A program made the translations under genes and the position numbers. Below the pieces are notes generated by a model that had not been told where the DNA came from, ran no database searches, and worked only from the letters and a program-made list of their open reading frames with translations. Shown here piece after piece: positions 1,266-1,902 of a stretch of 22,893 nt of DNA. Source of the DNA: a virus; the IMG/VR virus record IMGVR_UViG_3300025010_000234, positions 1 through 22,893 of that record; one strand, given 5' to 3'. Numbering within the stretch: position 1 is the stretch's first letter; every line of letters begins with the position of its first letter.

Positions 1266-1538
1266 CTACTTCGATACTTCCCAGCCTCTTTTCACTGCTT
1301 CGGCAATCAGATCCGCGTTGTCATTATCGTTGTTCTTCTCAGACCACAGCAGTTCGTGGGTAAGTATTTCGTCTGACATCTCAGCAGCGTTTCTGTCGAA
1401 AATAGGACCGTCGTACAGGTCAAGAGCTGCAAGTCTTTCCTTACGAAGTCTCTTGGCCTCTTCGGTATCACCGGCTTGCTTTGCGGCGAAGGCTAGTTTG
1501 ATGTTTTGGTCTAGCTTGCTTCCAATGATTATTTTCAC
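1266..1538 (-). CDS. Hypothetical protein (90 aa), first gene of accessory operon
   Basis: The start is GTG at 1538, with GGAGG placed 7 nt upstream. Transcription comes from the near-consensus promoter at 1596-1624. The product is mostly helical and rich in charged residues, with a basic Lys/Arg-rich helix (about residues 26-34) followed by an acidic and Asn-rich segment (EKNNDNDNAD, about 67-76). No known domain, membrane segment or metal motif is visible. The first gene of such operons is often the effector (for example an anti-defence protein), but nothing in the sequence proves it. Confidence 0.7.
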   Translation of the reverse strand: MKIIIGSKLDQNIKLAFAAKQAGDTEEAKRLRKERLAALDLYDGPIFDRNAAEMSDEILTHELLWSEKNNDNDNADLIAEAVKRGWEVSK

Positions 1539-1708: not shown

Positions 1709-1737
1709 TTGACAATTTTGTGTTTTTGAAATATAAT
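1709..1737 (+). promoter_or_regulatory. Perfect consensus sigma-70/A promoter for a non-coding RNA
   Basis: TTGACA (1709-1714), an exact 17-bp spacer and TATAAT (1732-1737) form the best promoter in the window. No ORF follows. The next 150 nt hold CRISPR-repeat-like units and a terminator. The expected start of transcription is near A1744/G1745. Such a strong, unregulated-looking promoter suggests abundant constitutive expression, including in the lysogen. Confidence 0.88.
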
Positions 1738-1756
1738 TTTCTCAGCTACCAGCCAC

Positions 1757-1862
1757 ATAGCCTACCTATAAGGGATTGAAACATATACTTGGTCATGTTC
1801 TAAACGAACATTCTAAGCGTGGCGGTAGCTGATTCAATAGTCTACCTATAAGGTTATAAAAC
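1757..1862 (+). repeat. Two degenerate CRISPR-repeat-like units, 80 bp apart
   Basis: Copies of 26 nt at 1757-1782 and 1837-1862 match at 21 of 26 positions, including an unbroken 12-nt core CTACCTATAAGG. They end GATTGAAAC and TTATAAAAC respectively. The 54 nt between the 26-nt units is longer than usual spacers and contains half of the long stem and a complete hairpin, so it looks structural rather than like an acquired spacer. The core and the ATTGAAAC end resemble 30-nt type I-B repeats of Firmicutes as I remember them; this needs a database check. Confidence 0.65.
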
Positions 1863-1886
1863 CCGTCGAATTCGACGGGTTTTTGC
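1858..1886. terminator. Perfect-palindrome bidirectional terminator
   Basis: AAACCCGTCG-AATT-CGACGGGTTT is a perfect palindrome centred near 1870. On the plus strand it is followed by more T (five in a row in total) and ends the small RNA. On the minus strand it also has a TTT tail and backs up the lysis-operon terminator. The 3' end of repeat-like unit 2 is inside its first arm. Confidence 0.85.
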
Positions 1887-1902
1887 TTTGTCCGGGCAAA
1901 AT

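Follow-up and report, generated by a model that had tools for sequence, protein, structure and literature searches.

A phage RNA with two CRISPR repeat units as a candidate Racr-like decoy

Promoter, fold and terminator of the RNA

The window (the whole 22,893-nt stretch of viral DNA analysed here) carries an intergenic RNA locus in the phage late region, with no cas genes. The locus directly follows the lysis genes and runs antisense to the late genes, as does its homologue L162 (see below). The following features were assigned to the window locus.

1709-1737, plus strand: sigma-70-type promoter TTGACA-17-TATAAT, with -35 at 1709-1714 and -10 at 1732-1737
1743-1756, plus strand: 5′ arm of the closing stem, pairing with 1819-1831 in the minimum-energy fold
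1757-1782, plus strand: unit 1, a CRISPR repeat by sequence, with an intact 8-nt handle, ATTGAAAC; 25/25 match to array repeats of genome G017
1783-1832, plus strand: pseudo-spacer interval of 50 nt with a conserved inner hairpin (1788-1817); 30/35 identical to the homologue L139 over 1783-1817
1819-1831, plus strand: 3′ arm of the closing stem in the minimum-energy fold, with both-sided changes across three sequences
1837-1862, plus strand: unit 2, upstream part intact (AGTCTACCTATAAGG), handle lost (TTATAAAAC); 21/26 identical to unit 1
1858-1887, plus strand: intrinsic terminator, a palindrome (1858-1883) followed by a T-rich tail

The promoter matched the consensus at 12 of 12 positions, against a chance expectation of 0.015 perfect promoters per shuffled window. 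Transcription is predicted to start at about 1744, at the very beginning of the closing stem. A promoter-like element lies at an equal distance in the two homologous RNAs described below. No plus-strand ORF of at least 20 aa was present inside the RNA, indicating that it is non-coding. A preliminary description of this DNA had reported the perfect promoter and the lack of an ORF, and both held; every other element that it named was also found in place. Small proteins encoded at 673-1197 and 1266-1538 (minus strand) adjoin the RNA; they matched no Pfam or PHROGs family and are candidate protein anti-CRISPRs.

The minimum-energy fold contained both structures that had been proposed earlier. The closing stem comprised 13 pairs (1743-1750 and 1752-1756 with 1819-1831, A1751 being bulged), and the inner hairpin was formed by 1788-1792/1813-1817 and 1795-1800/1806-1811. 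The whole RNA folded at -53.3 kcal/mol (z -6.3), a value as low as which was reached by none of 200 shuffles; with the terminator removed it folded at -34.9 kcal/mol (z -4.0). The terminator hairpin (1858-1883) has 11 pairs, is a perfect palindrome and shares 5 nt with the 3′ end of unit 2, in agreement with the earlier reading.

Repeat units, interval and likely host

Positions 1758-1782 of unit 1 were identical (25/25) to the array repeats of G017, a Sporomusales genome, which answers the comparison with host-type repeats called for in the preliminary description. The core and handle of unit 1 were also present in true arrays of L001, L004, L006 and L008. The pattern CTACCTATAAGGNATTGAAAC occurred both in arrays of numerous genomes and in true arrays carried by viral contigs. 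Judged from its sequence, unit 1 belongs among genuine CRISPR repeats. By analogy with type I-B Cas6 biology, a Cas6 cut is predicted between 1774 and 1775. Near the G017 arrays we found the type I-B genes Cas6, Cas7b, Cas5b and Cas3 with a weaker Cas8b-like match, as well as type III-B cmr genes. The terminase of the window was 54% and 45% identical to terminases of Sporomusales prophages and less than 35% identical to those of the phage records listed as best. The repeat identity with G017 and the closest terminases point to the same order, so that a host within the Sporomusales is likely. That order, assigned by sequence likeness, carries type I-B and III-B systems with the unit 1 repeat. 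None of 5,140 host spacers matched these phages beyond short partial matches near control level.

Units 1 and 2 shared 21 of 26 nucleotides, as reported previously. This was the best 26-nt direct repeat of the region, and 21 identities were equalled in 1 of 2000 dinucleotide shuffles. The segment TAGTCTACCTATAAGGTT of unit 2 was invariant across the window and both homologues.

The interval between the units had been given as 54 nt; measured against the 30-nt host repeat, it is 50 nt long (1783-1832) and, as had been stated, structured. The corresponding interval of L139 is 59 nt. Among 4,970 distinct spacers extracted from genome arrays with the pattern CTACCTATAAGGNATTGAAAC, nearly all were 34-40 nt long and one reached 50 nt. 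The earlier view that the interval is not a real spacer is supported by its length, which exceeds the usual range of genuine spacers. The argument from self-folding alone was dropped: the interval had a z of -1.6, while 35 of 400 genuine spacers fell below -2. The distinctive feature is the pairing of the interval with the leader across the repeat, not its own folding energy.

The repeat-interval-repeat arrangement would also suit a viral mini-CRISPR array with a single spacer directed against competing viruses. Viral examples exist (Medvedeva et al. 2019, in PMC11656645) and, as far as they are described there, resemble the window RNA in being virus-borne and in flanking an interval with the host repeat; they differ in that the window interval is overlong and conserved instead of virus-derived, and its second repeat has no handle. 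In the window, an interval of 50 nt contrasts with the usual 34-40 nt, is conserved across unrelated phages, and lies between units that are merely 21/26 identical, the second having lost its handle. A search of IMG/VR with the 18-nt interval core yielded unrelated sites only, and the core had no convincing protospacer in 50,697 phage records. We regard a mini-array as very improbable.

Homologous RNAs in unrelated phages

A scan of 2.9 million viral contigs revealed two homologous RNAs, L139 and L162; the search for the promoter-repeat-terminator layout in other phages that had been suggested earlier was thus answered by its recurrence. L139 lies on a contig of 142.8 kb and is complete, running from the promoter and closing stem through the repeat, interval and second unit to the terminator. 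Between the window and L139, unit 2 was identical at 18/18 positions, unit 1 at 23/26 and the hairpin segment at 30/35. The terminator hairpin was identical at just 5/18 positions and still forms. In L162 (36.6 kb), a 165-nt segment that begins midway through unit 1 and runs past the terminator is 95% identical to the window. Its 5′ half of unit 1 is replaced and the loop holds GCCCTGAGGAAAAGGGACTGAAACCCTTATGAAGGATTGAAAC; a shorter closing stem is still possible. The L139 and L162 phages had almost no similarity to the window outside the RNA, which makes the RNA resemble a mobile cassette.

In the closing stem, 3 of 13 pairs were altered on both sides among the three sequences, and 98.5% of cells paired in an alignment fitted by hand. 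The covariation score, obtained from three sequences with an alignment hand-fitted to this structure, was equalled by 31 of 500 shuffles. The compensatory changes are suggestive of the stem, not strong support for it, because the family has three members in reachable data. A covariance model (R1), which retrieved the known positives G005 and G003, found no true homologue in 300 Negativicutes, 391 Clostridia and 113 genomes of the class of G312. Weak R1 matches (L249, L250 and L254; intergenic, coding and at the start of a ferredoxin gene, respectively) were attributed to chance. Further patterns run on IMG/VR gave no additional family members.

The preliminary description held that homologous loci keeping the stems and losing the repeat-like segments would tell against mimicry of the host repeat. 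Half of that pattern is seen in L162, where the hairpin, unit 2, the terminator and a version of the stem persist and the 5′ half of unit 1 is gone. Such retention, together with the location beside the lysis cassette, is what would be expected of a structured phage sRNA with another role (e.g., regulation of late or lysis genes), whose repeat-like parts would be remnants or serve only for maturation by Cas6. Drift, however, poorly explains the 25/25 identity of unit 1 with the host repeat and the invariance of unit 2, and an Rfam search of the window RNA gave sub-threshold matches only, all below gathering, with no known family. We consider this explanation unlikely.

At L162:7480-7640 (minus strand), the I-B repeat is missing from the loop, which instead has two repeat-like, handle-bearing ends, GGGACTGAAAC and AGGATTGAAAC. 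No CRISPR array matching this first module was found in 150 genomes of the class, 28 genomes of the order, plasmids or IMG/VR. Both ends stand on the same scaffold as in the window. We tentatively put forward a modular RNA anti-CRISPR, in which the closing stem, the inner hairpin and a non-cleavable second repeat would form a conserved scaffold that moves between unrelated phages, and the bait repeat would be exchangeable according to CRISPR type.

A Racr-like decoy, its main rival and related elements

RNA baiting of CRISPR proteins with repeat copies is already known in general. For RacrIF1, the RNA has been shown to associate with Cas6f, to undergo cleavage and to nucleate an aberrant complex of Cas6f and Cas7f (Camara-Wilpert et al. 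2023, PMC10651486). Like Racrs (solitary repeat units), the window RNA is phage-borne, intergenic, promoter-driven, non-coding, a mimic of a plausible host's repeat and unlinked to cas genes. Unlike them, it combines a pair of repeat units with a closing stem and an interval that is structured; moreover, the activity of RacrIF1 lies upstream of the Cas6 cut, whereas the window RNA lies mostly downstream of the predicted cut. SRUFinder drops a candidate if a partial repeat of more than 70% identity occurs within its 100-bp flanks. In the window, unit 2 lies 54 nt away with 81% identity and breaks this rule, and the RNA is therefore best read as a variant that is Racr-like in working, outside Racr membership. 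No description of a folded two-repeat decoy design was found in the literature examined.

We give about even chances to the RNA being a phage decoy against host CRISPR systems that depend on Cas6, namely type I-B and perhaps III-B where repeats and Cas6 are shared. Several observations point to a decoy. Unit 1 is identical at 25/25 positions to the repeat of a Sporomusales genome carrying Cas6, Cas8b, Cas7b, Cas5b, Cas3 and Cmr genes. The RNA is phage-borne and intergenic and has a strong promoter. It is conserved in two nearly unrelated phage contigs, with compensatory changes in the stem, an invariant unit 2 and a replaced terminator sequence. The interval is outside the length range of spacers and its core has no protospacer in the records searched. 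Other phages bear the unit 1 repeat, either alone or together with a second unit that is structured or degenerate. The decoy is weakened by the missing 5′ half of unit 1 in L162, by the thin covariation signal from three members, by the ordinary self-folding of the interval and by the conservation of unpaired interval bases. The preliminary description had interpreted the RNA as a mimic of the host repeat that sequesters Cas proteins; the identity of unit 1 with the repeat of a plausible host, the recurrence of the layout and the non-spacer length of the interval support this in part, and the state of unit 1 in L162 tells partly against it.

The decoy might work as follows. The strong constitutive promoter would give an RNA of ~140 nt. 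Since unit 1 is a true host repeat, host Cas6 would be expected to bind it and cut before AUUGAAAC. The 13-bp stem, supported by prediction and conservation, would keep the cut halves joined, so that the Cas6-bound 5′ half stays tethered to the 3′ half, which would consist of the 5′ handle, the self-paired pseudo-spacer and a second repeat with its upstream part and no handle. By analogy with RacrIF1 (PMC10651486), Cas6, and possibly Cas5 and Cas7, would be trapped on a non-guiding RNA, leaving fewer effector complexes.

The main rival to the decoy is a phage-borne guide of the CreA/CreR type, in which Cas6 would produce an atypical crRNA whose 5′ interval, ATATACTTRGTCATGTTC, pairs in part with a promoter, and Cascade would repress host cas genes, a CRISPR-guarded host toxin or a phage gene. 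The general plan is alike: in CreA/CreR a diverged repeat pair flanks a pseudo-spacer, and the handle is better preserved in the first repeat (PMC8501985, PMC9458426, PMC12737573). Among the guides compared, the first 22 interval bases were nearly invariant and position 6, which is unpaired in CreA targeting, was among the variable ones. Unpaired interval bases were conserved as well, which a pure scaffold would not need and a guide function would explain. Matches to the seed (positions 1-5 and 7-11), however, were few and chance-like in the window, in G003, in two cas loci of G017 and in the cas region of Sporomusa KB1. An AT-rich stretch of G005 gave 13 seed hits, one of them full, which looks like an effect of base composition. 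Searches of 28 Sporomusales genomes for 21-nt targets of the interval gave none above control, and seed matches in the other regions searched did not rise above chance. In contrast to CreA/CreR, the window RNA lies in the phage late region, not in or beside a cas operon and with no adjoining recognised toxin; its unit 1 is intact, and its interval is self-folded and longer (50-59 nt in the window and L139). A guide function appears rather unlikely to us.

If the decoy is real, the window RNA is a candidate Racr-like element for type I-B, which is not among the types for which Racrs have been functionally tested according to the discussion in PMC10651486 (I-C, I-E, I-F and V-A). Published counts of RNA anti-CRISPRs would then miss a class, because the standard finder discards candidates with a second partial repeat nearby. 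RNA inhibitors could also evolve a dedicated fold and a second, apparently non-cleavable repeat, and spread among phages as a cassette.

Further repeat-bearing elements were found in phages. L002 has a long hairpin interval and a degenerate second repeat, and L010/L011 have a 37-nt interval and a second repeat with no handle. At L009:4866 (minus strand), a phage repeat is paired with a downstream anti-repeat and its handle lies in the hairpin loop, giving another structured repeat mimic. L157 has a single repeat directly followed by a terminator. As far as their sequences tell, these elements support a wider class.

Two separate solitary repeats, L147:4128 and L151:8478, were present on contig 3300031749_000453 and shared the upstream context GTCCCGAGC. 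Sporomusa sp. KB1 has a cas6 gene outside its main cas operon, and a solitary CRISPR repeat (L212:7870 / L256:70) separates this gene from mntA, which encodes a type VII antitoxin; a second mntA lies in the main I-B locus, between cas3 and cas1. CRISPR-linked toxin-antitoxin control is a possible explanation of this arrangement. The KB1 repeat was rejected as evidence of CreR, its neighbour being mntA and not cas8b, and a 16.5-bit model match on the opposite strand of the cas6-mntA intergenic region was taken as chance. In Tepidanaerobacter sp. EBM-38, the leader-proximal spacer of L101, ATTCCTTATAGGTAGGCTATAAACTCTTGAACATC, is mostly the reverse complement of the repeat of its own array, as if it had been acquired from an array or a phage repeat unit.
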